A stretch of DNA of 64,000 nucleotides from assembly GCA_007449985.2 (NCBI GenBank), contig VIIQ02000139.1, forward strand, positions 62,001 through 126,000. Direction: 5' to 3'. A model generated the notes under the pieces. It searched no databases. It saw only the letters and a program-made list of their open reading frames with translations, and was not told the DNA's origin. A program made the position numbers and the translations under genes. Positions 34,062 through 59,764 of the stretch are shown one piece after another. The DNA comes from Desmodesmus armatus. Its lineage: Eukaryota; Chlorophyta; Chlorophyceae; Sphaeropleales; Scenedesmaceae. Within the stretch, counting starts at the first letter, position 1; each line of letters opens with the position of its first letter.

Positions 34062-36849
34062 ATGGCCAAGCAGCTTGTGATTGCCCTGCTGTGCGCAGCA
34101 GTGGCCGTTGCCGCAGCCAGGGAGCTTACCCAGGCTAAGATTAGCGTTTCTGAGCTTCCCAAGCAGCTGCAGGAGCTGAACTCACGGTGCGCTGCTGCAG
34201 CATTCCCAGTACTGGACCTTCTGCTTTGCGGTGTAGCCTTGCAGCCCTGGCATTGAATACTATTATTTTAGGTGTCAATTGTGATTGAGGTTTGCGTGCT
34301 CTCTTCAAAGCTATCCGGCAGGGCCAGCCCACGTACTGCTTTTACTGCCTGCACACACACGCAGCGCTCAGCTTCCCGATTACATACATCAGTGAATATC
34401 AGCGTGTTTGATAATCAGCTTGGGCAAAAACGTGACGCCCTTCATGCAGCGTCGGCTTCGACAGTCGGCTTCCCTCCTATTACTGCCCACCCCACCCACC
34501 CTGGCAAGCCAGCAGCAGCCTGTCTTCATCACCACTTTGTGCCACAGCCTCACCCACCCACACTATCTTACACCTTCCTCTGCTGCTGTATCCTCATTGC
34601 TGCGTCCTCACTGCAGCCTTGCTGCCCTGGCCGGCAAGAAGACCGACAACAAGGTCTCCGCTGCTTCCATCCTCGAGGCTGAGGAGTACGAGCCCAAGTA
34701 CGAGTCAAAGTACGAGCCTAAGTACGAGGCCCCCAAGAAGTCCTACAAGGGCGAGTCCAAGTACGAGGAGTCTGAGTACTACCCCGAGCCCAAGAAGGCC
34801 TATGGTGGCCCCAAGTACGGCTATGCCAAGGAGAAGGTGTCCGTCAAGCTGTACGAGAAGTTCCGCAGCCACCTGCGCCCCCAGCCCGGAAACGTGAACA
34901 CCTTCCAGTTCACGTGAGTGATGAGAACTTCTTTTGGGGTCCCCCTGGGAGCAGCTGCGGCTTTTTGACACCTGTCAGTGACTGCTATGGCAGCTGTACA
35001 GCCCAGTGCCTGTTGCAAGCCGGGTGGTGGCTGGCAACATGTCCGTGGTGAATATATAGCATGACACACAGACACTAGTCATGCAGTCAGCTGATGTCGA
35101 TAGCAAGCAGCCAATCTATGCATAGGCATGCCGCTGCCGTCCCTGAATGCATGCAATCAAGGTCTGCTGACCATCATTATGGGCAGCTTGACAGCTGGAG
35201 CCTGCCTATAACTTGCAGTGCCCGCGATCATCCACACACAGATCACCAAGCTGACAAGCTCACACACCCACACCTCCCCCTCCTCTGTTTTCTTCCCTAA
35301 ACCCCACAGCTCCGAGCTGACCTGCCAGAACCCCAAGGCCGAGCACGGCCCCGAGCACGAGGACGGCTTCATCGGCTTCCCCATTGTGTCTGACCGCATG
35401 AAGCTGGTGACCGTGGGTGTGTGCGAGTGGACCGTGACCCAGGTGAAGGAGCAGCGCATCAGCGAGCACGCCAAGCTCAAGGGTAACACCAACGTGGTGT
35501 GCACATTCACAGAGGAGGCTGAGCGCCACTGCAAGGGCGGCCAAGTGAGTTGGGAGGATATGGTTTCTGGGCTGGGGTTTGGGGTTAAGGGTTGCGCACT
35601 GCTGCACACTGCTGCTTCTGGGGTACAGCTAGCTACAGCTGACTCCCTACTGCTCAGCTGTACTGCTTGATCGGAAATGAGGCAGTAGCTAGCAGCAGCT
35701 GCTGGCTGGCTCCTATTGCACAGCTGTCTGAGCCTGGCTGTAGCACAGTCGGTTACAAGGCATGTCTGCATGTTCTGCTGCCTTGGCTTCCACACAGTCA
35801 CTCCAGGCTTACACACTGCAGCGCTGCGCACTGATGCCTGGTTGGTGCAGCTGCAAACACATACAGCTTGACACACTCTTATCGACCCTCCCTGACTATC
35901 ACCTTCCATTGCTGCCTGTCAACAACAGGAAATCCTGGAGGAGGGTCTGACCGTGTCCGGCCAGGGTCTGGTGTACAACTTCGAGTCTGCCCAGTACGGC
36001 TCCTACAAGGTAAGCCTGGGCCACTCCTAGCCAGCAGCGGGCCAGCACACACCCAATGCAGTTCTTTTCTGCTGCGCGCGCACAACATTGCTTCTGCACT
36101 TGCATTGTGCTGCTGGTAGTGCATCATGCCGCTGATAGGATCAATGTGACTGCTCGTGCTGCTGTCAAGATCAGTGCACCTCATCATGATCCATGAGCTG
36201 CTGGTAGTACTACCATCTATTCAAGTCACTAGCAGCACTTACTGACTCCGCATCTGCCCGTACTTCACCAACCCCCTTACGAACTGCAGGGTGAGCTGGC
36301 TGCTGATGCCAAGGATGGTGAGGAGCCCGAGGGTGTGGATGTGTACCTCAACCTGATCAACGGTGTCATCAACCGCGAGAAGGAGATGAAGTACGACAAC
36401 GGTGCCCTGCAGTACTTCTTCGGTGTGCCACCCACCAGCTTCGACAAGGGACGGTGAGTATTGACTCAACCACTGCTGCGGGGGTGCGGTGCGGTGCGCA
36501 CATACCACGTGGCCTGATAGCTTGGTGCAGGTTGCATGTTGCAGGGACAGCGCTGCATTTTGCCAAGCAGGTCAGCAGTGCACCTAGTGGTGTTGATGGC
36601 AACATGCACACTGCTGCCAGCAGCATGGGTTGGCAAGTGGGACTGCTTTCCATTTCAGCCTTTCTTAGCGCATCCCATGCACCCTGTAAGACATCCTGCA
36701 GCCCCGGCACAAGCTCACCCCGCCTATGCACTGCCCTCCCGCCCCTGTGACTCCGCCCTCCTCCCCCGCCCTGCAGTGATGCCACCTTCATGTCCGCCGA
36801 GAAGAAGGGAGACCCCACCGGCGAGTACACCTTCGTGTTCAAGAACTAA
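34062..36849 (+). CDS. Gene A: secreted Lys-Tyr-Glu repeat protein with four-Cys C-terminal domain
   Basis: Six exons in phase: 34062-34186, 34617-34913, 35310-35544, 35929-36009, 36290-36453 and 36777-36849, giving 324 residues. It starts with a signal peptide (MAKQLVIALLCAAVAVAAA, cleavage probably before RELTQ). A short helical segment (ELPKQLQEL) is followed, at about residues 60-110, by a repeat array of the kind YEPKYESKYEPKYE and YYPEPKKAY. The conserved C-terminal domain begins VSVKLYEKFRSHLRPQPGN and carries the four family cysteines: SELTC, GVCEWTV, VCTFTEEAER and HCK. It ends GDPTGEYTFVFKN. Codon use is very biased (Lys nearly always AAG, Tyr nearly always TAC), which suggests high expression. 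I do not recognise the domain. The Lys/Tyr/acidic array and the secretion signal suggest a cell-wall or matrix component, as inference only. First of four paralogues. Confidence 0.8.
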
Positions 36850-39466
36850 GCGTGCCGCTACGCCGTCCGGAGTGCCGGCGCCGGTGCGCTGCGCACCTAC
36901 GTGGCACACGTGCGCCTTGCTCGCCTTGTTCAATTCTACTGAACAATGCACCAAAATGATGTTGCTGCTTTTGTGAGCTGCCTTTCTGCGGCGCGCGCGC
37001 CGTGGTAGGCAGATAAGGGTCGGGGTGAAAGCCCCAACCCTGACACTCCAAGGCTGCTTGTATTGTTGCTTGTGATGATGCGGCCTTGCAATACAGGCTC
37101 GTCGTCCGACTGCTCTACCCTTTGTGGAGCAGGCAGCTGCAGGTGTATGTCTCGGGGGTGTGCCATTTGGCACGCACATTGTATTGGCAGGAGTGGTCTG
37201 TCTAAAGTGTCACGTTCTCTGACACTGCTGTCTCCTTTTTCTTTGCATCACTCGCATACAGGCACACAGGCTGTCGTAGTCTGGTGTCTTATCTACGCTC
37301 GCAGGATGCGCATGCATGCAGGCAGTGATGGTTTGCTGCTTCCCACATATGGAGTGTGAACATGCTGTGCTGGCGACGTGAATTGTTGCTATGATCGCAA
37401 CTGGGTTTTGCTGGGACTGTTCTGGGGCCGGTCATCAATGAATTTTAAAAAGTGTGACTGTGGCAGGCTGGGTAAAGTATCTGGGCAGTCCTATACATCC
37501 AAGTCTGCATGGTGTTCACATATCATGCTGTCAGGCTAGGGGCCAGCCAGTGCTGAGATGCATTGTGTTTGCAAACATGCCTGTCAACTTGTTTGTAAAA
37601 ATGATTATCATGTACAAAGGCTGACTGCAGCAAGAGGAAGTTGGCAGTAAACTTCAAACTAAAGCACAAAAAGCCAGCACATACAATCCAGTCCAAACAA
37701 ATCGCCTTCACAGAACGACGGCCTTGCAGCACAATCATATATATCCAGTCCGGCTTGGTGTACAAAATCATTACCAGCAACAGGGTATTGCTGCCGCAGC
37801 AGTGACTGCAACATGCATGCCACAGTGTGGTGCTTCGGTGCCCAGCCTTCAAGAAGTTGTTCAGCACATCATACACACAATCAGCCGCACATTGTCCAGT
37901 TGTTGTGGTATGCTTGGAAGGCTCACAAACACCTGCTGGCACACCTCTGCAGCCAACAGCAGCACACACATTCAGGCTTAGGCAAACTTAGGGGTTTGAT
38001 TGGGTTCTGAGACCTTTCTTGCATTCTGCGCATCTCGCACATGATATGATACTGTGTTTGCAGTGAGGGGCTGGCAGCTCTTGAGTTTCATAGCTACAGG
38101 TGACACATTCGCTAACCCTGCGCCCCTACATGCTGCCAGTCTAACTTGCTGCGGCATCTTTGGCGCCATCACTCCAGCACCAAAATGCTCAATTGTGTAG
38201 CCATGTGTGCGTGTGCGTGCACGTGCGTGTGTGAAAAACTGCCGGCAGTCACTTATCATGATGCATCATTCTGAGGCTAGCCTGTCAATTGCTGTCAAAA
38301 CTCACTGTTGGCTGGTAATGTCAGGTCACAGATTGCATATAACATGTGACATCTATGTGTCACATGCTGCAGCTGCAAGTCATGCTGTGCATGTTTGGCA
38401 GCTAGCTGCAAGCAGCACTAGTGTACTTTTGTAGCGCAGATGGGCATAGGGTTTTGTCAAGGGCGCGAGCAGCAGCCAGTGGCCTTGCTGACTGGCCATG
38501 CATCTGGGCTCCCTGGTTTGACACCTATAAGTTGTGGTTCCCTCTGGTTTGCTGTCCCATCTCCATAAATCAGTGATTGGCTGGCATGAGCTCTCGAGCT
38601 TCTTGGCTTCATGTGTATCATTGAGTATACAGTTGGGTGTCGAGAGTCCCATGCAGTACGCTGATAAGTGGGCTCCTAAAGCTGCACACGGATGATAAAG
38701 TAACAGCCACGTGCCCCCTGCTTCCTCACATGCTCTGACCGAGCTTTTGTCACAGTTTGTAAATTGAATTACAGTCAATAAAGCAGAGAGCTGAGTTGGA
38801 GGAGCTGCTGCTGAAGCAAACCAGCATGGTGCAGCTGTGGCCCACAGCCTGTGGGTGTATATGCGGGAAAGGCGAAGTCGGTCTGGCGCAAGCAGAAACC
38901 ACCTGCCCATTGCTGCTAAGCTCCGACAGGCTGATACTGCAATTAAAACCGCCCAGCAGTCTGCACCTCGAGGGCATGATGCCCCAGCTTATCCCGGTGA
39001 TAGTTCATATTGGCTGTCATATTTGGCCAGAATATATCTCATAATCTGGGTTCATATTCTGCTGGAAGTTTTATATTCTGGTGAAAGCGTCATATCCGCC
39101 TAAAAATTACATATCTGCTTACTACACAGTGGCTCTCTCAAGCTGCAGGCCACACAACAACCTGAACAAGGCATAACAACATGCATAGCCACTTGAACCA
39201 AGGCAAATAGCAGCCAAAAAAGACACAATGCACTTGCATCCTATAGAACCCTGAACAAGCCATAATCGTTATGGCATACGCAGAGCACCCAGCAGTGCAG
39301 CAGCCAAAAGCAGGCTCTGAACACCAAGCATCTTCATCAAAGAGCTCCTACAGAACCCTGGAATAGCCTCAACCACAAGCATAGCACACATGTAGCTGCC
39401 GAATCAGAACACAGACACTGCAAGAACTATGCAGATACCACCAAGAGCTGCCTACTCAGCTACAAT
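36850..39466. other. Intergenic stretch between gene A and the recombinase remnant
   Basis: No gene is recognisable. It contains an AT-richer block (38998-39115) with repeated CATATT/ATATTC words, and one copy of a dispersed repeat. The first few hundred bases are probably the gene A 3' UTR. Confidence 0.4.
38888..38988. repeat. Dispersed repeat, copy 1
   Basis: About 100 bp running from CAAGCAGAAACCACCTGCCC to GCATGATGCCCCAGC. It is nearly identical to 41813-41917 apart from a small indel and a few substitutions. There are no obvious terminal repeats. Confidence 0.85.
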
Positions 39467-41647
39467 CTAATCGTCGTCATCATCAATCAGTGCTGAGCGG
39501 CGCACCCTCAGCCCCGCATTGTTGCCTGGCTGCTGCACAAACCCTGCTGCTGCTGGGTGACAATAGGGGTTGTTGCCTGGCTGCTGCACAAACCCTGCTG
39601 CCGCTGGGTAGCCGTAGGGGTTCCAGGCGGCCTGCACAGGAGGCCAAGCCTGGGGTCCAGGCAGGCCTGGTGCTGCTGCTGGGGCCCATTGAGAGGAATG
39701 GCCGTACCAAGGAGGGAAGCTGGGCTGGGCCTGGGGGACATTTATGTTGATGGTGATGCCGCCCCCGGCTGCTGGCAGGTGGTGCTGCTGTAGCTGCTGC
39801 TGGTAGCCCTGCTGTTGGTAGGTAATGTCAGCTGGCTGCTGCTGTGGTGCCTGAGCGGGCTTGGGTTTCTTGACAGGTGGCGGTGATGTCACATCCTCAT
39901 ACTCCTCAAGGTTGATGATCTCATCCTCCCAGCGGGGAACACTGCCAGTGGTGGCAGGGGCTTGCGGGCGGGGGCATGTTGAACTGCTTGGGCCGAGCTG
40001 CTTGCTGTCGCCTTCAGTGGGTGGGGCAGACAGGGGCTTGCTGTTGGCAGGGGCTGGCAGGGGGGTAGCCTCGGTCAGGAAGCCGAGGGCGCTGACCTTC
40101 TGTGCAGCCTCGTGCTGATGCTGCTGCCGCATGCGGGCAACCTCTGCCATCTGTGCGTCATCAATCCTATGTAGCAGCAGGTGGCAAGCAGCAAACAAAC
40201 AACGGCAGGGGGTGTCAGGGGGGGTGGGTATGTGGTGCCCAGAGAAAGCTTGATGTCCAGCATGCCCTGACACCTGCTCCCTGCCTATCACCTGTTTGCA
40301 TGCAAAAGGCGGCACAGATCACAGCATGAAGACATCTCACACATGCAAAAGGCTGCATAGACCACAGCAGGAACACACCTCACGCAAGAACGCAGCCCCA
40401 AAGGGTTGATGTGCCTGCTCAGGCGCATGATGGCGACCTCGGGCATACCCGCCCTGTAGCAAGCCTCGATGAACGTTCTGCGCATGCCGTGGTTGGCGCG
40501 GGGCTGCAGGCCGGCCAGGTGGCAGGCAGCTTAGAGTAGGTAGGTAGCCTGAGCCTCACCCATTGGGCCGTTGGTGAACTCGTCCTTGAACTTGGTGATG
40601 TCAAACTCAGCCTGCAGGTGTAGAAACACAACTGATGACTCATCAAGGGCCTCAGCATCAAAGACCTGCACACCACCACAATGCTGCAAAGGGCCAGTGC
40701 AGTTGATCTACAAGAGCAGCCATGGAGGTGTCAACGTGATGGACCCACCGCCAACACCAACAAACAGTACGCATCCTGCACCACGGCACTCAGCTACACA
40801 CCTTCTGCTCCCCAGCCTTGGCATTGTAGTGCTTCATCTGCAGGAACAGCCTGTCACAGCACGTGTCCCTGTTGCTGTTGGCAAAGGCGATCTGACGGTA
40901 TTTGGCATCCTCCTACAGGATATGAAAGCCGTCCAGGTAGGGCGTGGAACCTCTGTAGTTCTTGATGATGGGGTCCAGGTCAAGCATCTGGGCGCCGCGG
41001 CTTTGCTTCAGCTCGCCCTGGTTTTGCTTGATTGATGACGAGGGCTCAAAGAAGATGACGTCGATGCCGTTGTCGTCCTTGCCGGGCTTGAAGTCACTGC
41101 AAACAGCAGTCAGCGCAGGGTAGCGGCAGGTTCGTGTGGCTGGCAAGAACATGCAGCCGTGGTGTGGTTGCAAACCGACCGAAATGAATGCTGTCAGCAA
41201 TACAAACAGAAGAGTGCCAGCCACATGCATACCACACAGCCACAGCCACAGGCAACTGATGTGAGTCTGAAATTCTCACCTGACCCGCAGCTGCACCAGC
41301 TCCCCTGCCCGTCCACCCCACTCAAGCTCCACCCACAGATACTTGCGCAGGTTGTGGGAGAAGGAGGAGTTGGCCAGCTGGCGTGCGATGTCCAGCATGT
41401 GTGCCAGCTCGTGCGGCTTGAACGCGGGCTGCTGCTTGATCTTGCCCAGGCCAGCAGCAGTCAGCTGGCGGCAGGTGGAGTCGGCCGCGGTGCTCAGCTT
41501 GACGTCCTTGCTCAGGCTGATGGGCAGGGGTGCAGGCTTGCCCTCGAGCTCCAGGTGCTTGTAACTTGTGTTGATGACTCGAATCACACCGCGCACCATG
41601 TCCAGCAGGGCACCACGCTTGTAGTCCTGGCCGTTTTGCTGCTTGGC
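39467..41647 (-). pseudogene. Decayed tyrosine recombinase (Crypton- or DIRS-like), catalytic Tyr replaced by Cys
   Basis: Four segments on - join in phase: 41647-41280, 41096-40802, 40665-40379 and 40166-39467. The Arg motif is WGGRAGELVQLRVSDF (box I), rebuilt by the first splice. Box II is HGMRRTFIEACYRAGMPE (H-x-x-R) and box III is IMRLSRH. Nine residues after the box III His, where XerC/D-type enzymes have the nucleophilic Tyr, the sequence is INPLGLRSC: Cys (TGC, one change from TAC). Two in-frame stops interrupt the frame: TAG at 40915-40913 and TAA at 40533-40531, both one C-to-T change from Gln codons. The C-terminal segment is a Pro/Gln-rich tail ending in an acidic run. The 5' end is missing or unplaced. 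By family such enzymes integrate or excise DNA; this copy should be unable to. A Crypton, a DIRS remnant or a domesticated recombinase cannot be told apart here. Confidence 0.75.
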
Positions 41648-41812
41648 CTGCAGGACAACATGCACAAAACCCAGCATTGATGTGGTGAGCGTTTGAGCAC
41701 CATTCAAACTTGAGCATGCAAAGCTTCGGCACATCCCCAGCACAGACAGTGGTGCCTGCGCATAAGGCCAGCACACGTAGCCTGCGTGCACCAGCAGCAT
41801 GCAGGACGTGCT

Positions 41813-41917
41813 GGCAAGCAGAAACCAACTGCCCATTGCTGCTAAGCTCCGACACTGAGCGGATACTGCAATCAAAACCGCCCAGCAGTCTGCACCTCGA
41901 GGGCATGATGCCCCAGC
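41813..41917. repeat. Dispersed repeat, copy 2
   Basis: Near-identical partner of 38888-38988, differing mainly by ACACTGAGCGG versus ACAGGCTG in the middle. The two copies lie on either side of the recombinase remnant, in the same orientation. Confidence 0.85.
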
Positions 41918-42203
41918 ATACACAGGCACCCAGATAAACTGGATAAGAAGAGCCCAGCAGCTGAACATTCGGTTACGTCTGTCAGGAGTATGCAGACGCA
42001 GAATGACCTGCACAAACGTCTTCGTTGAACAAGTTTTGTTCATGTTATCTGGCTGCATCAGCTGTTGGAGTGCTGGATGCAAGGTGGGCACTCATATGTT
42101 TGTGTGCCTTCTGTTAGGCAACCATTCTGTCGAAAGTTACACAGAAGCGCAAAAGAAAGATATCATAATGATTAATGCAAATAGAAAGGCGCCAATGCCA
42201 TGC

Positions 42204-42265
42204 AGGACAGCCGGCAACCTCAGAATGGGTAACGTGCTGTGTACAAGCCACCGGCCGGCTGTCCT
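42204..42265. repeat. Inverted repeat (12-bp stem) upstream of gene B
   Basis: AGGACAGCCGGC at 42204-42215 pairs perfectly with GCCGGCTGTCCT at 42254-42265, across a 38-nt loop. It sits just before the TATA-like element and could be a regulatory site or simply chance. Confidence 0.6.
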
Positions 42266-42486
42266 CTTGTCGTACAAGTCCGAGTGCATAAATAGAGACG
42301 AAAATTAGTTGATCCTGCAGTGTAGAGCCGTCTCAGTTGCTCAATCAGGGGTTCAGTCCGCACACGTAAAACTGCACGGTACTGAAGGCAGCCATCCTCA
42401 TAGCATCTCCGCCCCCATCCCGGTCTACGAGTGCAGTCTAAGCACTACCTGTCGAGTTCGTCTTGAATTTATTGCAGCCAGCAACG

Positions 42487-45330
42487 ATGGCAAAGATTGT
42501 GCTCGCCCTTCTGTGCGCTGCTGTGGCTATGGCCGCAGCCAGGGAGCTCCTTGCTCCTCTGCCATCCCTGAGCGTGGCATCTCTGCCCAAGAAGCTGCAG
42601 GAGCTCAATGAGCGGTGAGCTTGGCTGCTTGCAGTAGACCGCTGGAGTCTGCTTTCTCCAGGCTGGCAGCATGAGGCAGCAAGCGCCTGAAATAGTATAA
42701 AGATAGTGCTTCGCATTGATTCAGCCCACGTGCGGGCTCCTTGGAGCCAAGCATCGGAAGCGCAGCAGAAACGTACTTGCAGGGGCAGTATCTTCGGCGA
42801 CATGCACAAAGCATTCGCCTCGTCTACATCAAGCAGCAATTATGTTTACGTCTCCAGCACAGAGCGGCAACCACACCTCCGGAATATTGAAACACCCAAA
42901 CGCGGTCCCTTACATGCAGTGTGGTCCACATGATACCACATCTCTTTCAAAAGCAATACACTGACATCCGCATATCCCCTGTGTCCTCTGCCTCGCTGCC
43001 CCACCCCACCTCACCCCCTACAGCATGGCAACAGCAGAGGAGCCCAGCAAGGTTGCAGCAGCCAGTGTGGAGACAGAGGAGGCATACTATGGTGGCGAGT
43101 ATGAGCCTAAGTACGAGCCCAACTACGACCCCAAGTATGAGCCCAAGTATGGCAAGGACGAGTACTACCCCGAGCCCAAGTATGGCAAGGACGAGTACTA
43201 CCCCGAGCCCAAGAAGGCCTACGGCAGCAGCAAGGTGTCCGTCAAGCTGTACGAGAAGTTCCGCAGCCACCTGCGCCCCCAGCCCGGAAACGAGCACACC
43301 TTCCAGTTCACGTGAGTCTACAGCTACACACCATTCCCTGCCTGCATGGCTGGGCAGGCATGGGGTGGTCAACAGCACGTGCCTGCTATTTGGATGACAG
43401 CCTGGCAGGCCTAAGCCAGGTTCTACCCCTCCCAGGATGTCTACTGTGTTGTCACAGCTATTTGCAACTGATATGACACAATCATCACATGCAACCTCCT
43501 GTTTCAGGCTGCATGTAGCAACCATGCTGCTGCTGCAGTGGCTGTTGCTGCTTGAATCTCCGCACCCATCATGCTGCTCTCCTCACCACAGCATCCTCAC
43601 ACCTTGCCGTCCTCACCCACTCACCCTGCTGTCCTCACCCTGCTGTTCCTCCTGTTGAACCCTGCTGCTGCTTTCCCTAAACCCCACAGCTCCGAGCTGA
43701 CCTGCCAGAACCCTAAGAAGATTGAGACTGAGCACGAGGACGGCATCATCGGCTTCCCTCTGGTGACCGACCGCATGAAGCTGGTGACCGTGGGTGTGTG
43801 CGAGTGGACTGTGACCCTGGTCAAGGAGCAGCAGATCAGCGAGCACGCCGCCCTCAAGGGTAACACCAACGTGGTGTGGTGAGTAGCATGCAAGGGTTTA
43901 GGGTCTATGTAGAGGCTAGGAGTGCCGCTGTTCAACTGCATACACATGCTTGCTTGCTAACCTTCCTGCCACCTGTGATCAGCTTTTGCTGCAGCCATAA
44001 CTCCCAGTGCACAGTACACCGACGGTGGACCGAGCTCAGCACCCCTGAGCGCAGCTGCGCATGCTGTGCGCCTCAGTCTCCCTACTGCCCACATGCCCTG
44101 CGCAGCTCCCCAATCCATGCAGGCAGTAAGCCAAAGCATCACACCTTGCCGTAGCTCCCTGAGTTGCCCTGCCAGGCCAGGCCAGCGGCTGCGCATGTAT
44201 GTTGACTTAGTGATGTGTGTTATGTGTTGTGTGCAGCACATTCACCGAGGAGGCTGAGCGCCACTGCAAGCACGCTGCTGAGGTGCTGGAGGAGGGCCTG
44301 ACCGTGTCCGGCCAGGGTCTGGTGTACAACTTCGACAACGCCCAGTACGGCTCCTACAAGGTAAGCCACCTCTGGTCGCACATGGCACGAGCTTGCCCCC
44401 ACATGAAATGTTGGTAGATTTGATCAGTGCATCATCCTTGCAGCACACCAGACAGCTAGACCAAAGCAGTTCCCATCAATCCAACGTCAGCGTGCACAGC
44501 GCACATAGGCCACGCCGCTGCATGACCGCGTAGCTGCAGCTTGGGGCAACTGTCACTCCTTTAAGCAGCCCAGTAAACATGCATCTTGACGCAGCTGCCG
44601 GCGGAACCATCACACACCCACCTGAATCTCATTCTCAGTCATTCAACCACCGCCCTCACCACCCCCTGTCGTGCCTCATACCTCACAGGCCACCCCAAGG
44701 CTGAGAAGAAGGACGAAGAGGCAGAGGAGCCCGTTGCCGACGGCCTGGACGTGTACCTCGCCCTGATCAACGGCGTGGTTGGCCGCAACAAGGAGCTCAA
44801 GTACGACAACGGTGCCCTGCAGTACTTCTTCGGTGTGCCACCCAAGGTGCCGATGCCAAGGCCCGCGATGTCATGAGCATCCAGAGCCAGCAGTCCGGTA
44901 AGCAGGGTTTAGGGTACTGCTGGGGTTTAGAGGGATGGATTTGGAGGGTGTGGGAACTGGCTTTGGGAGGGGTCCCAGGGGGGCGTGATTCAGCGCACGT
45001 GTGTTGCCTGCGCTTGTTGGCTACACTGGGTAGCCTAGATTCTGCCTGCTCAGAGGGTTTTAGCTACTGCTGGGGTTTTGGGGGATGGGGTTTTGAGGGC
45101 GTGCTTGGTGGGTTTGGGAGGGGTCCCAGGGGCGTTACCAGCGCCCATCTCAGCGCTCAGCGCATATGTGTCACCTGTGCTTGTTGGCTACTCTGAGTGA
45201 CCAGACATCTGTATTGCAACCTTGCTCACACTGTTGCGCATCCAGAAGGCTCATCATGCTGCTGCTTGCTGTTGCTGCTGTTTGCGCAGGCGACCCCACC
45301 GGAGAGTACACCCTGGTGTTCAAGCACTAA
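42487..45330 (+). CDS. Gene B: secreted Lys-Tyr-Glu repeat protein, frame broken by one missing base
   Basis: Exons 42487-42614, 43024-43311, 43690-43878, 44237-44360, 44700-44897 and 45290-45330. Signal peptide MAKIVLALLCAAVAMAAA; the array contains YEPKYEPNYDPKYEPKY and two YGKDEYYPEPK units; then the same four-Cys domain (VSVKLYEKFRSHLRPQPGN, SELTC, GVCEWTV, CTFTEEAER, HC). The exons sum to 968 nt, one short of a multiple of three. At about 44844-44848 the sequence reads CCCAAGGTGCC. One more G would give FFGVPPKGADAKARDV, matching gene D's YARDV and leading in frame through the last exon to TGEYTLVFKH. As written, the frame ends early at TGA 44874-44876 (301 residues instead of 322). The acceptor of exon 5 (CCCCAAG|GCT) is atypical; CACAG six bases earlier would be out of frame. 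Confidence 0.7.
44903..45200. repeat. Tandem duplication inside the last intron of gene B
   Basis: Two diverged copies with a period of about 150 bp, both containing TACTGCTGGGGTTT, then GGGAGGGGTCCCAGG, and ending in TGTGCTTGTTGGCTAC-type sequence. Each copy opens with a telomere-like AGGGTTT(T)AG motif. Confidence 0.75.
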
Positions 45331-49568: not shown

Positions 49569-52500
49569 ATGATGAAGGCTTCTTTGGCACTGCTGTGCCT
49601 GGCTCTGGCCTGCACCGCTTATGCAGCAGACATCAATGTGAGCGACTTGCACCAGCAGCTGCAGGCTGTGGACCCCAGGTGCGTGGCCTTACGGGTGTTT
49701 TCCGCTTCGAGGGTAGTTTCAATGACACCAAGCTCGTCAGGCGTTCTCCGCAACCATTAGACACCTCTCAAACTTGATACGCCAATGTACAAACAATGCA
49801 CGCAAGCCAGGCGACGTGCGGATCGGCTGGGGTTGGCAGTTACTGTCTTGACAGCTAGCTGCTGCCTGTGATGTGCTGCAGCCTGGCAGCTATCAGCAGC
49901 AGCAAGGCTTCCACAATGTCCGTGGACAAGGAGGATTACTACAAGGACGATTACTACAAGTACGAGGTGAGAGGCACAGCACAGCAGACAGCAGAAGACA
50001 GCACCTACCCCCAACCGTCACACAGGGTACACGACCACACCTTCAGCTGCAGAAGAAAGCAAAGCATGTGTGTCCCAGACGTCCTGATGGTTTGGTTGGA
50101 GCTCAGAGCAGTAGTACCTGTCAGCTGGGGTACTGCTGTGGCCCGCATGTCTGGTTTCTGCTGTGCGCAGGCAATTTGGCGGTTGGGGTCTATGCAGCCC
50201 TAGATTGCGCACACTATCAGCACCCCAACCCTGTGCACTTTGTTAGGCAGCCTAATCAGCACATGTCAGGCATCCAAGGGCCAAACATCAGTCTTCTGGG
50301 TGCCCAGCACAGCTTGAGAGCCGGATTATGGGGGATTTGGTTGGGGTGTGCTGCAGAGGAGGGATATGCTCCCTCCTGCCTTTGAAAACGTCTCAGTCCG
50401 TTGGTCAGCAGCCTTATCCAAGGGTGTACTGCTCTTTTGTACTGCAGAAGAAGTACGAGGACAAGTATGGCAAGTACGAGAAGAAGTATGAGGACAAGTA
50501 AGTGACCATGCCTGTACTGCACTTCGGTGATATGCATGTGCTGGCACCCCTTTGAAAGGACAGCTTGTCATCCCATGAGCAGACTTACTCAGATGCACTG
50601 CAGGGAATGCTTTCAGTGTTTTCAGTGCTGCGCACACAGATGCTCAGCCAATGCATGGGCATGTACCGCTGTGTGCCCTGCACCCCTGCGGGTCCTGAAG
50701 CACCCACTGTCTGATGAGAGAGACTGTACTGCTGCTGGCTGCAGGTATGAGAAGAAGTACGACGACAAGTACGAGAAGAAGTACGACGACAAGTACGAGG
50801 ACAAGTATGAGAAGAAGTATGATGACAAGTACAGCAAGTACGAGAAGAAGTACGACGACAAGTACGAGGACAAGGTGAGAGAAGTACACACGTGTACTGC
50901 ACACACAGCAGTACAGCACAGGGTGTACTCCACATACCCTGCGCTTGGTGCTGGCGTGGTGCCTTCTGCCTTAGGACCACCACACTAGTGCAGGCGCGCT
51001 GGATGTGACGGCCACCTGCTTAGTGCCACTGGCAAATGTTGCACCAGCAGCCTCAGTATTGTGTACTGCCTGACATGAAATGTATGTATTGTACTGGTGC
51101 TGTGCAGTACGGCAAGTACGAGGACAAGTACGGCAAGTACGAGGACAAGTACGGCAAGTACGAGGACAAGTACGGCAAGGACAAGTATGACGAGAAGTGA
51201 GTCACGCTGACTAAACATAACAATTTCACGCCATCTTGCGCACTGTACACAGGGTCATCCGTTGCCGGCACACCTGCCTGCCACATACATACCTGCCATT
51301 GTACTTCACGGCAGCAGCTCCGAGCGCTGGTGGAAACAAGCTCCCTGCCAAGACATCATCAGCAAAGCTGTGCGGCACTGTACCTCACACCACACCTGAC
51401 CCCTGCCCTGCGCGCATTCAAGCCCCCCTGCACAGACACTAACCCCCGCCCTGCACTGCCTGTGTGTGTGTACCTCGCCCCGCGCCCCTTTTGTCCTGCA
51501 GGTACTACGACTTCACGCAATCGCCCTGCCCTGCATGCATACCTCACCCCTTGCCCCTGCACAGACACTAACCCCCGCCCTGCACTGCCTGTGTGTGTGT
51601 ACCTCGCCCCGCGCCCCTTTTGTCCTGCAGGTACTACGACTTCACGCAATCGCCCTGCCCTGCATGCATACCTCACCCCTTGCCCCTGCACAGACACTTA
51701 CCCCCGCCCCGCCCTGCCTGTATGTGTGTACCGCCCCCCTGCAGGTACTACGACTACAAGCACACCGACTACTATGGCAGCTACGGCCCCGAGAAGAAGC
51801 TCACCCTGAAGCTGTGGGAGAAGAGCCGCGGCCCCCTCAGGCCCCAGACCGCCAACGCCAACACCTGGCAGTTCAGCTCCGTGGTGACCTGCGACAACCC
51901 TAAGGCCGTCAAGGACATCCACAGCAACGACGGCATCATTGACATCCCAGTCAACCCTGACCTGAAGGTGACACCCGTGGGTGTGTGCGAGTGGACCGTG
52001 TCCGAGGTTACGCCTCAGCAGATCAGCGAGCACGCTCTGATCAAGGGCTCCACAAGCGTGGTCTGGTGAGTGGCATGGGAAGGGTGGAGGTGGAGGAGGG
52101 GTTTGCAGGATTTCATGGTGTTCTGGAAGGGGAATTGTGGGCCATGTTGTGACAGGGGGTGGGTGGAGGGTGAGGAGGGTTCTGCAGGATGCATGGCGTT
52201 CAGGCAGGGGAAGTATGGGCCATGGCATGTGACAGCCGCGGCCCAAGCTGGGTACAGCAGTGGCTACTTGCAGCTACTGCCAAATGCGCGCTGTTACTGG
52301 CTGCTGTTGTGGTCGTCAGTCGTCTCTCGTCAGTCGTCAGTCGTCTCTCTGACGCCTCTCACGCCTCTCTCGTCATGACGGCGTCTCGTCTCTCGTCATG
52401 AGGGGACATGTCTTTGCGTGCAACTGTACATGCGCCAACCTTCACTATCACCACCCGCAACCTAATATTGACTGTACACGTGCCAAAATGCTGACTCTGT

Positions 52501-53755
52501 ACACGTTCTATTGCTGCTGTTTTTCCACTCAGCACCTTCACCGAGGAGGCTGAGCGCACCTGCAAGGGCGACTTCCTGTGCGACAAGATGTCCATCTCCG
52601 CTGCCGGTCTGCTGTACCACTTCGACAAGGCCCCCGCTGACTACGGCTACGGCAAGGACGAGTACAAGAAGGAGGTGAGCAGGACAAACATGTTTTTTTT
52701 TGTCTTTTTTTGTTGGAACAGGGGGAGGTGAGCAGGACAGGTTGTTTTCTTGAAGGTTCCCAGAGGGGCGCAGGAGGTGAGCAGGACAAACAACTTTCTT
52801 TGTGTCGAATTTGTGCTAGGTAGGGATAGGGGGAGGTGAGCAGGACAAACATGTCCTTTTTGTTGTGGGTATAGGGGGGGTGGCCCACCGGCTGGCCACA
52901 CACACAACAGGCGAGTACACCGGACTGCAAGGAGCCCGAGGTAGAGCCTCACACCAATGAGGGACGCCTAACGCCTCTGTTCAGGCGGTGCCCAGCGCCC
53001 AACATGTTGTCCCATGCACTGACAGTGCCTCATCTCTATCGCTCTTATACGCACCTGCTGGTGCTGTCCTGCCTCCATGACTGCCTGTTATGTGACATGC
53101 GTGATGTGCATGTCTTTGTTAATGCGCATGTGCATGCGCAGCTGTGCGTTGGTTGGCTAGTTTTCTTTACATTGTCTCACCTGCATGATCCTGCTACTGC
53201 CTTGCCTGCTGCCAGGAGCCTGCTGAGCTGGACATGGACGTCATGCTGTCCCTGGTCAACGGTGTCAACGGCCACAAGCACAAGACCGAGTACGACAACG
53301 GTGTCCTGCAGGTGAGGCCTAAACCCTAAACCCTAGGGATGCAGGGTGTTTTGCAGGGTCCCAGGCGGCTGAGCCACTGCTGTGCAAATGATTGCTGGTG
53401 TATGTCTTCGTTTGATATTTGCAAAGCGGTAGCACCAACACACAGGCTTTGTCAACAGCGCGCACCAGTGTTGCTTGCATCCTCGTGAGGATTTGCTGAT
53501 GCCGCTGTCAGTGGCATCCTAGTCAAGGGGCCCTTCCTTCATCAGCCTGTGATTGCGCCCAGAACCAACCTCCACCCTGCAATGCAGTGCACGCGCCCAC
53601 AACCAACCTCGCCCCTTGCCTGCTTGCCCTGTCGTACCGTTGTACCGCAGTTCTACTACGGCGCCGCTGCCGAGACCGACAAGGCTGCCATCAAGTACGC
53701 CACTAAGGATCCCAAGGACGCCACCGGCGAGTACACCATTGTGCTCAAGGCATAA
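49569..53755 (+). CDS. Gene C: secreted protein with a long Lys-Tyr-Asp/Glu array and four-Cys domain
   Basis: Nine exons in phase: 49569-49678, 49882-49966, 50448-50497, 50745-50874, 51108-51196, 51745-52065, 52533-52674, 53216-53311 and 53651-53755, giving 375 residues. Signal peptide MMKASLALLCLALACTAYA. The array spans four exons and is almost wholly Lys, Tyr, Asp, Glu and Gly (units such as KYEKKYDD and KYGKYED). The C-terminal domain begins LTLKLWEKSRGPLRPQ. It keeps all four cysteines (VVTC, GVCEWTV, CTFTEEAER, TCK) and ends TGEYTIVLKA. It lacks the intron that A, B and D have between the FQFT strand and the first Cys. Exon 6 is preceded by decoy acceptors and exon 7 followed by decoy donors, both made by tandem repeats. 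It is the most diverged of the four. Confidence 0.8.
51429..51760 (+). repeat. 129-bp tandem repeat carrying a 3' splice site and exon start
   Basis: Two nearly identical 129-bp units and a third, shortened one. Each ends TGCAG|GTACTACGACT, with exon starts at 51502, 51631 and 51745. Only the third continues into open coding sequence (TACTACGACTACAAGCAC). After the first two, the frame runs through TTCACGCAATCG to a TAA within the repeat. Confidence 0.9.
52671..52852 (+). repeat. Tandem copies of an exon end and 5' splice site
   Basis: The gene C exon 7 boundary, GGAG|GTGAGCAGGACA, recurs three times in the following intron. Donors fall at 52675 (genuine), 52728, 52777 and 52836, spaced 53, 49 and 59 bp. 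The sequence between copies is T-rich and more diverged. Confidence 0.85.
53317..53337. repeat. Telomere-like motif next to a splice donor
   Basis: CCTAAACCCTAAACCCTAGGG begins five bases after the donor of gene C exon 8 (53312). Related GGGTTTAGGG words lie just inside introns of gene B (43884, 44904). Confidence 0.8.
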
Positions 53756-56190
53756 CCAGCTTTGCAGCCGCCAACCCCGGGCCCCTGCGTTTGGCGCCAA
53801 AGTACCCCTGCGCCCCACACACATTCATGTGCAGCACTTGCTGCTGCTACGCTTGCTCAAGAAATGGGGTGCATTGTGGGAGACTGTGGGTGCACAAGCC
53901 TTGCTGGGAAGGAGGGCGTGTCCAACCCTACGTGGGGCGCTCTTTTTCCTGCGCTGACTGGCTGAACGGGGTTTAGCATAGGCAAACTTGACTTTGGGTA
54001 ATGTGTACGGCGCTTGAGGCCGCCAACTGGCGCTGAAAGTGGTTTGGTTCTGCTGTGGGCGCTGCAAAGCATCTGCAGCAGCAATCAGGCATGGCGTCAG
54101 CTGGGCAACATGTGCTGTAATGTAGTTACCTCATCACTGACCATGTAGGGATGAGGGTGCAGGGGGCAGCCAGCAGGTTGCTACATGTGCAGACTGTGTT
54201 GTTTGGTACAGTAGTGGTACTGTAGCTGTGTTACACAGCTGTTATGTGGCTGCTTGGCTTAACCACCAGCTCTGCCAGGTGGCAGGGTGTGACCTGTATC
54301 ATATACAAGTGACCAAAGTGGTGGTGGGGTGTAAGTACAGACGTTGCCTATATGCAAGTTCACTTGATTGGATTCATGTCTGGGTGATATCTGATGCTCC
54401 AAAACGTCCTGCACACATGTTCAAGCCACAGCCTGAGGGTGAAAAAAAAACAAGGCACAATTGTTTGTGAATCTGGCCCAGAGATCATGCTGTCTGCCAT
54501 CACTGGTTCAAAATCAAGTCATCAGTGAAACCAACACTGCTTAAATACATACAAGCAAATTATTTGTACATATGTAAACAAAGCAACGTGACAGCAATGC
54601 GTTTGGGACTAGCTCCATATGCTCACGGCTTGCAAGCTTGTCAATTGTTGATCCAAACAAGTCAACAAGGGCTGATCCATATATGTGTGGGACAGTTACA
54701 ATGGCACAGCACCAATGCTTGGCAGTCTGACAACAACAGCCTCAGCTATGCCACGTGTTCGGCATATTCCAGCTAGCTGCTTTGCAAATGTCACCTCAGG
54801 CAAGGGCAAACGTTGACCAACAGGTCCGTCCTGCCTGCTGCCCTGGTGATCAGGACTTGCCAAGTGCAGTGCAGTGCAGCACACTCAATACTGGAGATAC
54901 TATGAGATAATCGCTTAGCAGAGACAGCATTTGGGACCATGTTTCATTTCCAATTCATCATCACTGCCAAGTAACATGGCTTCCTAGTGTTCAACAGTTC
55001 GCTGCGGCAACGGCCATCCAAGCTTGAAGCAGTCACATGTCGACTGCAGCACCCTCAAGGCTCTCATGGTGACAAGTCTTTGGGGCAATACCAGTTCATT
55101 GCATATACGTCAGTGTCACAAAGACAAGGAGGGGGGTGGGATGAGTGCTATCACAATGACAAAGACCCTGAGAGTACAGACTTGTATGGTGCTTGCCCTG
55201 CCCCAGGCCCTCGGTTGGAAGGGCAGGTGAAGAGTTCGGTAGTCCAGCATCTGGACATGCACACACCCCTAAGGACTAAGTTACACCAGTGGGTCTTCAT
55301 AGGCGTACTACGTAGGTACAAACTACGCAAGGCTTACTATGGTGTTTCATGAAAGAGTGTGACAGCTTCGATGCATCACTGCACAGCTGGTGACCCCAGC
55401 ACAAGGTGACTTTGGCCGGCAGTTATGGGCTGGTATGTGCAGGAGCTGATAGTAGTCAGTCATGTAGCCCCTGTGCGCAATCCTGTGTGCCAAGCCAAGG
55501 CTGGCCTCAGGGCATTGCCAGGATTTGGCGGGAAAGCATTGGGAGCGGATGCATGCATGGCTTTGACGTCGAACACATGCGTCTCTAGAAAATGTTACAA
55601 TTTGAAACTTGATTTCGTTTGTCTCTCAATTGCATGTGATGCACGACACGTACCATGCACACATTTTTGTTGTGATGGCTGGTACGCAAAACCGACAAAG
55701 CGGTAGCTGCAAAGCCTGGTTGAAACAGTAACGTAGTGCATCTCTGCATTTGGTTGCGTTTATTTGTCCAACTTGGCACTGCCAGCAGGTCAAAAGCTAG
55801 CTGCAACTGCGTTGCAGATACGCAGAGTGATCTTGATCATGAAGCAATATTGCATTGACGGTTCAACCAGCATGTCTGTAGTATCTTTCATGTTCGGCTT
55901 GCCGTACGGTGGCCTAGTGGCTGTTGCTTCGGCTTTGCCGTACTCAAACTCGCCCACTTTGCGTGCTACGCTTGCTTGAACTTCAAATATCGCTTACGAC
56001 GTCGCTTTACGTTTGGAACTGGTGCGCATGGGCACTGATCAGAGCACGGCTAACGCCTTGTTCAATGTTACACGGCTGTGGCCGCTCGCTGTTGAAGACT
56101 CAAATAGCGAGGAGCGGTGACACTTACAACCAAACAAGCTTACCTTGTACATCTAATAGTCTCAATCAAACCTAGGTTGATCTCGCTACA
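53756..56190. other. Intergenic stretch between genes C and D
   Basis: The 3' UTR of gene C, then sequence with no recognisable gene. Frames of 60-120 codons on both strands show no domain. CTCAATCAAA shortly before the gene D ATG resembles CCAATCAAA upstream of gene A and CTCAATCAGG upstream of gene B, a possible shared element. Confidence 0.35.
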
Positions 56191-59100
56191 ATGGCTAAGC
56201 TTGCACTCGCCCTGCTGTGCGCAGCGCTTGCTCTGGCAACAGCCAGGCAGCTGCACCAGACTGGCATGATGGATCTGAACCAGCTGCCTCAGACACTGCA
56301 GGACCTGAACGCACGGTGAGTGAATGTTCCTCGCAGTTGCTTGACAGATTACGCGCCAAACGTTTTACACCAAACCCAAATGCTGCGATCACACCGTGCC
56401 AACAGGCGCAAATGATTTGTTAAATAAATATAATTACTTTTCTGCAGCACGCAAGCTGTATCGATGACGCCACCGCGAATCGGTCTGCATCCTCTGCAGC
56501 TGCCCTGCCACTCGACCTCCAATCCCGCCTTGTATGTTTGTTTTACTCACCAAACTGCCCATGCGCTGTTGCTTATGATTCTCGCACTTTGTCCAACCCG
56601 CTGCCGTTCTGCCCACAGCATGTCTGCTGCTGTCAGCAACAAGGTGTCCACCATGTCCCTGCTGGACTCATACGACCTGTACTCCAAGCTGGACAAGAAC
56701 GGCAAGTATGTGCCAAAGTCCAAGTGAGTACACAGCCTGTGGAAACATTGTACGCTTGTCGGGTTTCTGTGAAAGCTGTTCATGTTTGCTCAGCTTCACT
56801 GGCGATGCTGGCATGCAGCTTTGGGACACGGGCTGCAAGTACTGGCCACGCGACAGCAAAAGCTCATGGCACAGCATATCATGTTTGATGTGTCAATTGG
56901 CACCAGTTGCGGCACCATCACTAACCAATCTGTCTGTTGGCTGTGCATGCATGCGTGTAGTGTGTTATACATCAGTTTTGGAGTGATCCAATATATACAT
57001 GCACCAATAGCCTATCACCACCGCGGGCTCCTTGAAGGAGCCCAAGCATCCAGCACAACTAGCCACCTTCACAACCACCCTACAAACCACACCACTCCCA
57101 AGGCACGGCAATGCAGCTTGCTCCTGTGAGAGCTCCACTCAACAGCCTGCCCTCGCTTTCCTTCTCTGCACCCCCCTCTGCGCAATCCTGCTAGGTACGA
57201 CGGCCCCAAGTACGACGGCCCCAAGTACGATGGCCCCAAGTACGATGGCTACAAGGAGGACAAGTATGCCAGCGGCCCTAAATACGAGGAGCACAAGTAT
57301 GATGCTCCCAAGTACGACGGCCCCAAGTACGACGGCCCCAAGTACGACGGCCCCAAGTACGACGGCCCCAAGTACGATGCACCAAAGTACGATGGCTACA
57401 AGGAGGAGAAGTATGATGGCCCCAAGTACGAGCCCAAGTACGATGCCCCCAAGTACGATGGCCCCAAGTACGAGGAGCCCAAGTACGATGCCTATGAGAA
57501 GGAGGAGAGCTACGGCTACGATAGCTACGGCGCCAGCAAGGTGCGACTGCTGACTGCCAGGCGGTTTCCTGCAGGATCAAGGCTTGCTTGATTGGATCAG
57601 TGCACGAGGCTTACATGCACAAACTGCATGCGCACACCAACAGCACGGCACGCCGGCAACAGCATCCCTACAGCAACTAATGGCTGACCTACACTCTGGC
57701 CTCCACATGATTGCTAGTCAGCCGCACAGAAGGTCCTCCTTACCTGTGGTCTTGTGCTGCCAGCTCAGTGTGATAACCTCCGTAGTCATGCATGCTTTTG
57801 TGCTGAGGCGACCCCCGTACTTATGCATGCATGTTCTTGTCCTGCAGGTGTCCGTGAAGCTGTTCGAGAAGTATCGTGGCAAGGCCCGCGTCCAGGAGCA
57901 CAACCCCAACACCTTCCAGTTCACGTGAGTAACGACAGCATCACTGCTTCTGCTTGATGGTACTGTCCCGCGCCCTGCTACCACGTTCTGCCGCCCTCAG
58001 CCCCTGGTCTTGGTTGCAAAAGCCTGCGGCATGTCTATCCTATTCGACCGCATGGTCCTCATTATCGCCAGCATCTGGCCTCTGTTGCTGCCGCATGCAT
58101 TGCCACCAGCACCAGCCTATGCCCCGCCCTCGCGCACACACAACACTCTGACCTCTCCTTCCCCTGCCCTTCCCCTGCCCTGCCCTGCGCTGCCCTGCCA
58201 CCACCTGCCGCTCTCTCTTCCCCTCCCTTTTCCCCTCTCTCGCTCCTCAGCTCCGAGCTGACCTGCACTGACCCCGCAGCTGTCAAGGAGATCGAGAAGG
58301 ATGATGGTGTGATCGGCTTCCCCATCTCCTCTCCCCGCATGAACCTGGTGACCGTTGGCCAGTGCGAGTGGACCGTGACCATGGTGAAGGGACAGCAGAT
58401 CAGCGAGCACGCCAAGCTCAAGGGCAGCACCAACGTGATCTGCCGCTTCAACGAGGAGGCTGAGCGCCACTGCAAGTCTGCATCCGTGAGTGCTGAGTGC
58501 TGACTGCTGCTGTCAAGTGGTGTGCTGAGCTGCTTTGTGTTAGGCTGTAGGCTGCTGTGCGCAGCGTGACAGGGTTGCGTACCTGCCATCTGAGGGCCCT
58601 GCTGCCAATGAGCCAGGCACTTGGCGGTTGTAGCATGCTTTGCTCCTGCTGGCCACTCACGCCTTCTGCACTGTCCGTAGCCCTGTACTCATGTTCCCAT
58701 GCATGCATGTACCCATGTAGCCATGTACCCATGTACCCTTGTACTCATGCATCTGTCTGCATGTTGCGTCCTGCAGGAGATCCTGTGCGACGGCATGACC
58801 GTGAGCGGCCAGGGTCTGGTGTACGAGTTCGAGGCCATGGAGCAGGAGAAGACCTACGAGAAGACCTACGCCAAGGTGAGGGCATGTTGTACAATACAAG
58901 TTGATATGTCCAATCATCATGTAGTACATGTGTCCCAGCCGATGGAACTCATTCTGAGCAGACCGGCCAGGACGCACATTGTGCCGCTGGTTCATCAACC
59001 TCTCTGCACTCAGCTGCTCAGCCTTGCACCCAGCATGAAGCCCAGCACCTCAGCACAGGACTAGCTACTGTCAGCTCCTTTCCTGTCGGGATCCTGTCAA

Positions 59101-59764
59101 GATTGTGTGCTCACCTGTGTGTCCTGCGCCGTTTTCCGCCCTGTGTTCTGCAGGAGGCTGCTGAGGTTGCCAAGAAGGAGGAGGAGGCCGATGTTGAGTC
59201 CATGGATGTGTACCTCTCCCTCATCAACGGTGTGATCAACGCCAAGAAGCACATGAAGTGGGACAACGGTGCCCTGCAGGTATGTTTTATTTATGTGCAG
59301 GCATGCCTCAGTACATGATGTTTTGGCTGATATGGTGTCAGTTGGTTTGCCTCTGCTGCTTACACCAGGCCAGATTCCACCTGCCCTGTATGTTGGATCG
59401 TACAGCACTTTGTTTCTGGAAAAGTCCTATGCTCAGCACATGCATGGCTTGTTGACACACCTCTTCAGGCTGTCAGTTTCACTATCCTCCTGCAGCTGCT
59501 GTCAACTTCTGCTGGGCACTATCCAGCAGTTTCAGCAGCCTGCGCTAGTGCGCAACGCGCCTTGCTGTGCATGATACATGCTGACTGACCTGCTGCGCAT
59601 GCTTTCCCGCCCTTTTTCCTGCACTGCGTCCGTGCCTGCAGTACTTCTATGGCGAGACCAAGGAGGAGGCATATGCCCGCGATGTGACCACCTCCTACAG
59701 CTCCGCCAAGGGCAACCCTACCGGCCAGTACACCCTGGTCTTCAAGGGCGGCAAGGGCTACTAA
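56191..59764 (+). CDS. Gene D: secreted Lys-Tyr-Asp-Gly-Pro repeat protein with four-Cys domain
   Basis: Eight exons in phase: 56191-56315, 56619-56723, 57195-57540, 57848-57924, 58251-58485, 58777-58875, 59154-59279 and 59642-59764, giving 411 residues. Signal peptide MAKLALALLCAALALATA. Exon 3 is an array of about 20 units, mostly the pentapeptide KYDGP with KYEEP, KYDAP and GYKEE variants. The conserved domain follows: VSVKLFEKYRGKARVQ, SELTC, GQCEWTV, CRFNEEAER, HCK. The C-terminus YARDVTT...TGQYTLVFKGGKGY ends in a Gly/Lys tail unlike the others. The Lys/Tyr/acidic/Pro arrays recall cross-linkable or adhesive extracellular proteins (Tyr-Tyr cross-links, coacervation), which is analogy, not homology. 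Intron positions match gene A rather than B or C. Confidence 0.8.

Follow-up and report, generated by a model that had tools for sequence, protein, structure and literature searches.

Apparently secreted Lys-Tyr-acidic repeat proteins with a predicted allene-oxide-cyclase/dirigent-type barrel, encoded by a gene cluster of the green alga Desmodesmus armatus

In a 64,000-nucleotide stretch of the genome of the green alga Desmodesmus armatus (hereafter the window: bases 62001-126000 of contig C135, in a genome of 115.8 Mb and 831 contigs), an earlier note had drawn attention to a cluster of four genes, here called A-D. The proteins that they encode are apparently secreted and combine a low-complexity array rich in lysine, tyrosine and acidic residues with a shared domain containing four constant cysteines, which we predict to be a beta-barrel of the allene oxide cyclase (AOC)/dirigent type. 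We propose, with a probability of about 0.5, that A-D are secreted wall or matrix proteins in which disordered Tyr/Lys tails are oxidatively cross-linked and the barrel serves as a folded head.

All four genes lie on the plus strand within 34062-59764 of the window, at the places originally assigned to them, and hand-built models show them to be intron-rich, with GT-AG introns (Table 1). The introns of gene A are backed by nine relatives (P0001-P0006 and P0008-P0010), the sequences of which are unbroken at the intron sites; the model of gene C is backed by P0010, a continuous open reading frame (ORF) on a short contig with 94% identity in the domain, and that of gene D by P0004-P0006, at 89% identity each. 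Gene B has the same layout as the other three. With the obvious acceptor of its exon 5 the frame is lost at once, and with an acceptor at 44700 it stays open up to a TGA that precedes the last exon. Possible explanations are an assembly error, alternative splicing or a pseudogene. The 129-bp tandem repeat that precedes exon 6 of gene C places copies of the acceptor and exon start at 51502 and 51631, which are possibly decoys, and 51745 was taken as the real start.

The gene-specific arrays were found as first described, and every one of them has an excess of KY dipeptides over the number expected from composition (5 versus 2.3 in A, 4 versus 2.0 in B, 25 versus 9.9 in C and 19 versus 4.7 in D). 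Predicted to be disordered, the arrays are Arg-free, nearly charge-neutral polyampholytes (net charge -2 to -6 across the four), and the commonest spacing of their tyrosines is 4 or 5 residues. The claim of a signal peptide in each gene agrees, as judged by hydropathy alone, with a hydrophobic N-terminus in 4/4 (mean Kyte-Doolittle value of 2.5-3.2 over the best 12 residues). Codon use is strongly biased, as had been noted: A, C, D and exons 1-4 of B have an effective number of codons of 28.1-30.6. The values used for comparison are higher, at 44.7 in paralogue E (39.8 if its domain is taken by itself), 50.3 in the main exon of the distant member F (E and F are described below) and 46.4-48.5 in four further long ORFs of the window, which were called mechanically and are not proven genes. 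In a coding scan trained on E and F, and not on A-D, the top four places in the window went, in this order, to the exons that hold the arrays of D, A, B and C. By their codon bias, A-D are probably highly expressed, as the earlier note had supposed.

The shared domain, 204-221 amino acids (aa) long in A, C and D, carries its constant cysteines in the motifs ELTC/VVTC, G(V/Q)CEWTV, (V/I)C(T/R)F(T/N)EEAER and (H/T)CK in all four genes; to this original observation we add a fifth cysteine confined to C and D (ILCDG and FLCDK, respectively). Pfam scans at E <= 10 found no family match for A, C, the ten members of a set that includes the domains of A, C, D, E and F (A3) or eight relatives, gene B being left out. 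Rows dismissed as chance-level were Imm11 (0.18, 0.12), DUF3292 (0.08, 0.14), Vta1_C and IRX15 (0.092 each), PBP_sp32 (0.59), PRTRC_E (0.91) and tRNA_anti-like (6.5), with scores well under the curated cut-off wherever a cut-off was shown. NCBIfam gave no match with D, P0001 and P0008, the PDB searched by sequence with the domain of A only gave nothing up to E 10, and the literature searched holds no recognisable description of the A-D family. The match to a characterised intracellular family that had been named as refuting appeared in none of these searches. The statement that no named family has this architecture holds at the level of sequence; at the level of fold it would need amending, since the domain is predicted to have a known fold, the AOC/dirigent-type barrel.

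The domain model, built on a nine-sequence alignment, is an eight-stranded beta-barrel of the AOC/dirigent type, with a predicted template-modelling score (pTM) of 0.56 and weak last strands; its strand order is a long strand 1, a short strand 1', strand 2, a long loop and strand 3. Foldseek put the same superfamily at or near the top in both of two libraries, one of them the PDB. Dirigents (PF03018) are trimers that steer the coupling of phenoxy radicals, and they share with A-D a secreted wall setting, which for A-D we infer. The short strand 1' and the long loop between strands 2 and 3 of an eight-stranded barrel, predicted here, are described for dirigents in PMC7450108. Dirigents differ from A-D in that the latter are fused to Lys-Tyr arrays and have four constant cysteines; moreover, dirigents apparently first emerged at the aquatic-to-land transition (PMC7450108), whereas A-D come from a green alga. 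Allene oxide cyclases (PF06351) and AbyU-type cyclases resemble A-D in the barrel fold, predicted for A-D, and differ from them in that A-D have a signal-peptide-like start and repeat tails.

A number of results speak against this assignment and the proposal built on it. Foldseek returned no match at E <= 0.001 in either library, and a separate fold model of the F-type relative P0023 failed, with a predicted local distance difference test score of 36. These two results, with the pTM of 0.56 and the weak last strands, would fit a barrel that is an artefact of modelling from the nine-sequence alignment, the domain being some other beta-rich fold; the agreement of the two libraries on one superfamily and of the strand order with the published dirigent description makes this unlikely in our view, although it deserves serious attention. 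On the same side of the balance, the first PDB rows in Foldseek include a haemophore and porins, and neither Dirigent (at E <= 10) nor Allene_ox_cyc appears as a row in the Pfam scans described above. The FHD (Phe-His-Asp) triplet, residues 48-50 of GePTS1, is conserved in nearly all dirigents (PMC7450108); in a string test, it was absent from A, C, D, exons 1-4 of B and 29/29 retrieved relatives, several of which are fragments. Searches of the alga's own genome for Dirigent and AOC found none, and the control was equally silent, so that absence of such genes from the genome cannot be claimed. What we retain is a predicted, distant link of the A-D family to dirigent/AOC barrels, with a putative function.

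The first protein search gave 11 matches among 2051 scored candidates, of which P0001, P0003-P0006 and P0008-P0010 are single ORFs that run from a hydrophobic start through to the C-terminus, while P0002 lacks its N-terminus; these nine occupy contigs of 1.2-2.4 kb, and P0007 and P0011 are genomic in appearance. In a tree of 14 rows, C groups with P0010 with good support (100/99) and D with P0004-P0006 with fair support (89/100); 6/10 inner branches are weak, and the A/B split is not resolved. The array type is kept in these relatives (KYDGP/KYDAP for D, KYEKKYDD for C), at variable length. Since C and D group with their own relatives and the array type is kept, the C and D lines are older, by this sequence evidence, than the split from P0010 and from P0004-P0006.

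The family is larger than the four genes first counted, with at least two further members elsewhere in the genome. The own-genome search listed 18 matches, 16 of them on C135; the remaining two are E and F. Paralogue E begins with a hydrophobic stretch, followed by a long coiled-coil-like region of Ala, Glu, Gln and Lys and then by the four-Cys domain. One of its introns matches an intron of A, B and D in both position and phase (between FT and SELTC). F has a Pro-rich array inserted inside the domain and extra Cys. A profile search, in which only the 7997 candidates sharing the most words were scored, gave 18 matches at E <= 1; among them, at E 1e-22 to 2e-10, were the F-type proteins P0023 and P0026-P0029. 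This makes F credible as a member, although the F sequence is itself in the profile, so that the recovery is not an independent test. The F-type layout agrees (GxCWWT and TCE(L/M)E, with the Pro-rich array within the domain in F and P0027). The other 13 matches (P0012-P0022, P0024 and P0025) are E-type; sequences were examined for 16/18, and P0020 and P0021 were placed by their 85-89% identity to E. The A-D family is known here from the source genome and these relatives alone, and has no Pfam match.

Similar arrays occur elsewhere in the genome. DNA patterns for KY(D/E)(D/E/K/N)KY(D/E), KY(D/E)xPKY(D/E) and KYxKDxKY were found at 18, 17 and 31 places, against 0 in the control; outside C135, they fall on five contigs, C127, C374, C552, C657 and C692. 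A fourth pattern, AAGTAYN6AAGTAYN6AAGTAY, was not relied on (34 places versus 15 in the control). The five stretches examined (two on C127 and those on C552, C657 and C692, leaving out C374 and C127:62820) contain large Lys-Tyr arrays spread over several exons (for example SKDSKYEDK, KYDDKYGYDKY and KYEDKYDSKYED), in which neighbouring exons would form one gene. Cys-containing or Pro-rich pieces adjoin the arrays on C127, C552 and C657, the C692 stretch has arrays only, and at the 107-kb place on C127 the open frame also takes in KPYYPKEDA and KPAQPVQ arrays. The exon scan was trained partly on A-D and so favours Lys-Tyr-rich frames; the DNA pattern counts are independent of it. Pfam gave no match for 10 pieces of these loci, and an exon-by-exon search, in which weak members may be missed, did not find the barrel domain beside them. 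Because these loci carry arrays where the domain was not found, the arrays are not specific to it, and A-D belong, from the patterns, to a wider group of Lys-Tyr array loci of the alga.

In the mechanism that we propose, array tyrosines (and lysines) would be cross-linked after secretion by extracellular heme peroxidases, joining the arrays of A-D with each other and with other Lys-Tyr proteins of the same alga. As a folded head, the disulphide-bonded barrel would bind to itself, to an aromatic ligand or to a wall component and would thereby set the site where the tails are fixed; that it steers coupling in the manner of dirigents is speculation from the fold. By analogy, a secreted, disordered chain with a Lys-adjacent tyrosine most often every 4-5 residues would be the kind of substrate that wall peroxidases couple. 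PF00141 peroxidase exons gave 8 matches on five contigs, and this family also holds intracellular enzymes; An_peroxidase exons gave 15 matches, on C132 and C783. At C132:40467-53746 and C783:102387-106546 the matches resemble three genes for animal-type heme peroxidases, including a tandem pair on C132. PMC8160292 cites Val-Tyr-Lys specificity for a tomato extensin peroxidase, and the zygote wall of Chlamydomonas is cited in PMC6912462 as having isodityrosine as well as Lys-Gln bonds. The Lys-Gln bonds, together with the 8 to 35 lysines per array, could suggest that lysine rather than tyrosine is the working part, joined by a transglutaminase to glutamines of other wall proteins; as tyrosine about equals or exceeds lysine in the arrays of A-D (Tyr/Lys 11/11, 13/8, 34/35 and 25/22) and is regularly spaced, we consider this highly improbable.

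The location of the peroxidases also counts against the cross-linking proposal, their extracellular placement being putative, and wall location, expression and cross-linking of A-D are predictions from sequence. The Scenedesmus obliquus wall proteome, in the available part of PMC11839794, likewise holds no protein identifiable with the A-D family; its wall list includes KAF6264724.1, a secreted 252-aa hypothetical protein, not compared with A-D. The folds nearest to the model, those of AOC, AbyU-type cyclases and pyocyanin demethylase, are ligand-binding or catalytic barrels, as would suit a carrier, located in the medium or the periplasm, of a small hydrophobic molecule (a phenolic, a carotenoid or a derivative of a fatty acid), with the near-neutral, Arg-free tail solubilising or charge-tethering it. 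Such a carrier is unlikely: tyrosines placed mostly every 4 or 5 residues are unneeded for solubility, the C and D groups retain their array type in relatives, and similar arrays occur at loci where the barrel was not found. We think it rather improbable that the arrays form a non-covalent charge and tyrosine glue for coenobium cohesion or flocculation, with no cross-linked wall; their near-neutral polyampholyte character would suit this, and the high Tyr and Lys content resembles the composition by which diatom adhesion candidates were screened on the model of mussel proteins (PMC4220933), but the flocculation candidates of S. obliquus AS-6-11 are GPI (glycosylphosphatidylinositol)-anchored and fasciclin proteins (PMC7590803). 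The available part of a S. subspicatus flocculation proteomics study (PMC7220994) offers no link to the family.

Pherophorins (PF12499, DUF3707) are algal extracellular proteins with low-complexity stretches and a Cys-containing domain; membership of A-D was rejected, with no PF12499 row in Pfam for A, C or any of the ten A3 members, and the genome has one pherophorin-type match. TLRPs are much smaller than A-D and have a short motif as Cys domain in place of a predicted barrel of 210 residues. By description rather than by comparison of sequences, they resemble A-D in a signal peptide, high Tyr and Lys content and a Cys domain (PMC2843620). Extensins have regularly spaced tyrosines, Tyr/Lys motifs and peroxidase cross-linking (PMC8160292); they differ in that A-D have acidic/Lys repeats and a barrel domain, and no extensin-type Ser-Pro(3 or more) run occurs in A, C, D or exons 1-4 of B. 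We know of no folded domain common to A-D and either the diatom surface protein AC3362 or mussel foot proteins, and the repeats of both differ from those of A-D. AC3362 is nonetheless Tyr- and Lys-rich, uses Lys instead of Arg and is found at the cell surface (PMC4220933). In adhesive proteins of the Dopa type, the tyrosines are hydroxylated to Dopa.

As to the surroundings, the order and strand of the 26-kb cluster stand as originally described, but four coding-like minus-strand segments at 39566-41659, between A and B, mean that it is not strictly uninterrupted; they have no Pfam match. No 9-mer is common to at least three of the four 500-base upstream sequences of A-D. Among 10 pieces of neighbouring window ORFs scanned against Pfam, a MYND finger alone rose above the cut-off, a leucine-rich repeat row falling below it. 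At 17943-18089, about 18 copies of the 8-bp unit GCCCCCAA give a Pro-rich reading in two frames. Elsewhere in the genome, all six cox1 matches have in-frame TAG codons (the best match has 8, and the second has 11 along with one TAA), which in the stretch examined stand at positions fitting Leu in the cox1 consensus. TAG is read as Leu in the mitochondrial code 22 of Scenedesmus, so that this pattern probably places the alga in the Sphaeropleales, within or close to the Scenedesmaceae.

Table 1. Locations of the genes, their parts and other features. Positions are those of the window unless a contig or locus is given.
Feature	Location	Strand	Description
Gene A	34062-36849	+	6 exons, 324 aa; spliced open frame, GT-AG introns
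Gene A exons	34062-34186, 34617-34913, 35310-35544, 35929-36009, 36290-36453, 36777-36849	+	
Gene A array	34675-34833	+	KYEP type; 53 aa, 11 Tyr, 11 Lys, 0 Arg, net charge -2
Gene A four-Cys domain	34834-36849	+	over 5 exons; predicted barrel
Gene B	42487-45330	+	6 exons; no single frame reads through exon 5 as assembled
Gene B exons	42487-42614, 43024-43311, 43690-43878, 44237-44360, about 44689-44897, 45290-45330	+	
Gene B array	43076-43231	+	KYEP and two KYGKDEYYPEP units; 52 aa, 13 Tyr, 8 Lys, 0 Arg
Gene C	49569-53755	+	9 exons, 375 aa; clean spliced frame
Gene C exons	49569-49678, 49882-49966, 50448-50497, 50745-50874, 51108-51196, 51745-52065, 52533-52674, 53216-53311, 53651-53755	+	
Gene C array	49925-51793	+	KYEKKYDDKYED type, across five exons; 120 aa, 34 Tyr, 35 Lys, 0 Arg, net charge -4
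129-bp tandem repeat preceding exon 6 of gene C	51425-51739	+	multiplies splice acceptor and exon start
Gene D	56191-59764	+	8 exons, 411 aa; clean spliced frame
Gene D exons	56191-56315, 56619-56723, 57195-57540, 57848-57924, 58251-58485, 58777-58875, 59154-59279, 59642-59764	+	
Gene D array	56719-57537	+	KYDGP type, nearly confined to exon 57195-57540; 116 aa, 25 Tyr, 22 Lys, 0 Arg, net charge -6
Gene D domain with fifth Cys	57538-59764	+	end of exon 3 and exons 4-8
Paralogue E	L024 2674-5902 (contig C7)		E 3.7e-12; 955 aa, three exons
Distant member F	L023 (C2:1529296)	-	E 0.5 in own-genome search; first exons not resolved
Lys-Tyr-acidic array loci	C127:41631-46703, 62820, 107868-107950; C374:22866-22919; C552:527179; C657:274379-275169; C692:342666		DNA patterns
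Long ORF ending in MYND zinc finger	20684-22603		Pfam E 4e-8

The wall of S. obliquus is a cellulose layer beneath an algaenan-containing trilaminar sheath (PMC11839794), and the A-D cluster supplies concrete candidate proteins for walls of the Scenedesmus type. As a long shot, Scenedesmus-like algae might have a wall system based on a Lys-Tyr-acidic array proteome, in which the small, abundant members with a barrel head would provide built-in guidance of tyrosyl radical coupling in the manner of dirigents. Such a system would be the chlorophyte counterpart of the dirigent/phenolic-polymer logic of land-plant walls, with the phenol carried in the protein. If Tyr/Lys arrays are indeed fused to a dirigent-type barrel, the family would allow a direct test of an independent phenol-coupling wall chemistry in green algae and would provide new sequence-defined polyampholyte materials. 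The cluster may represent an undescribed way to build and harden an algal cell wall.
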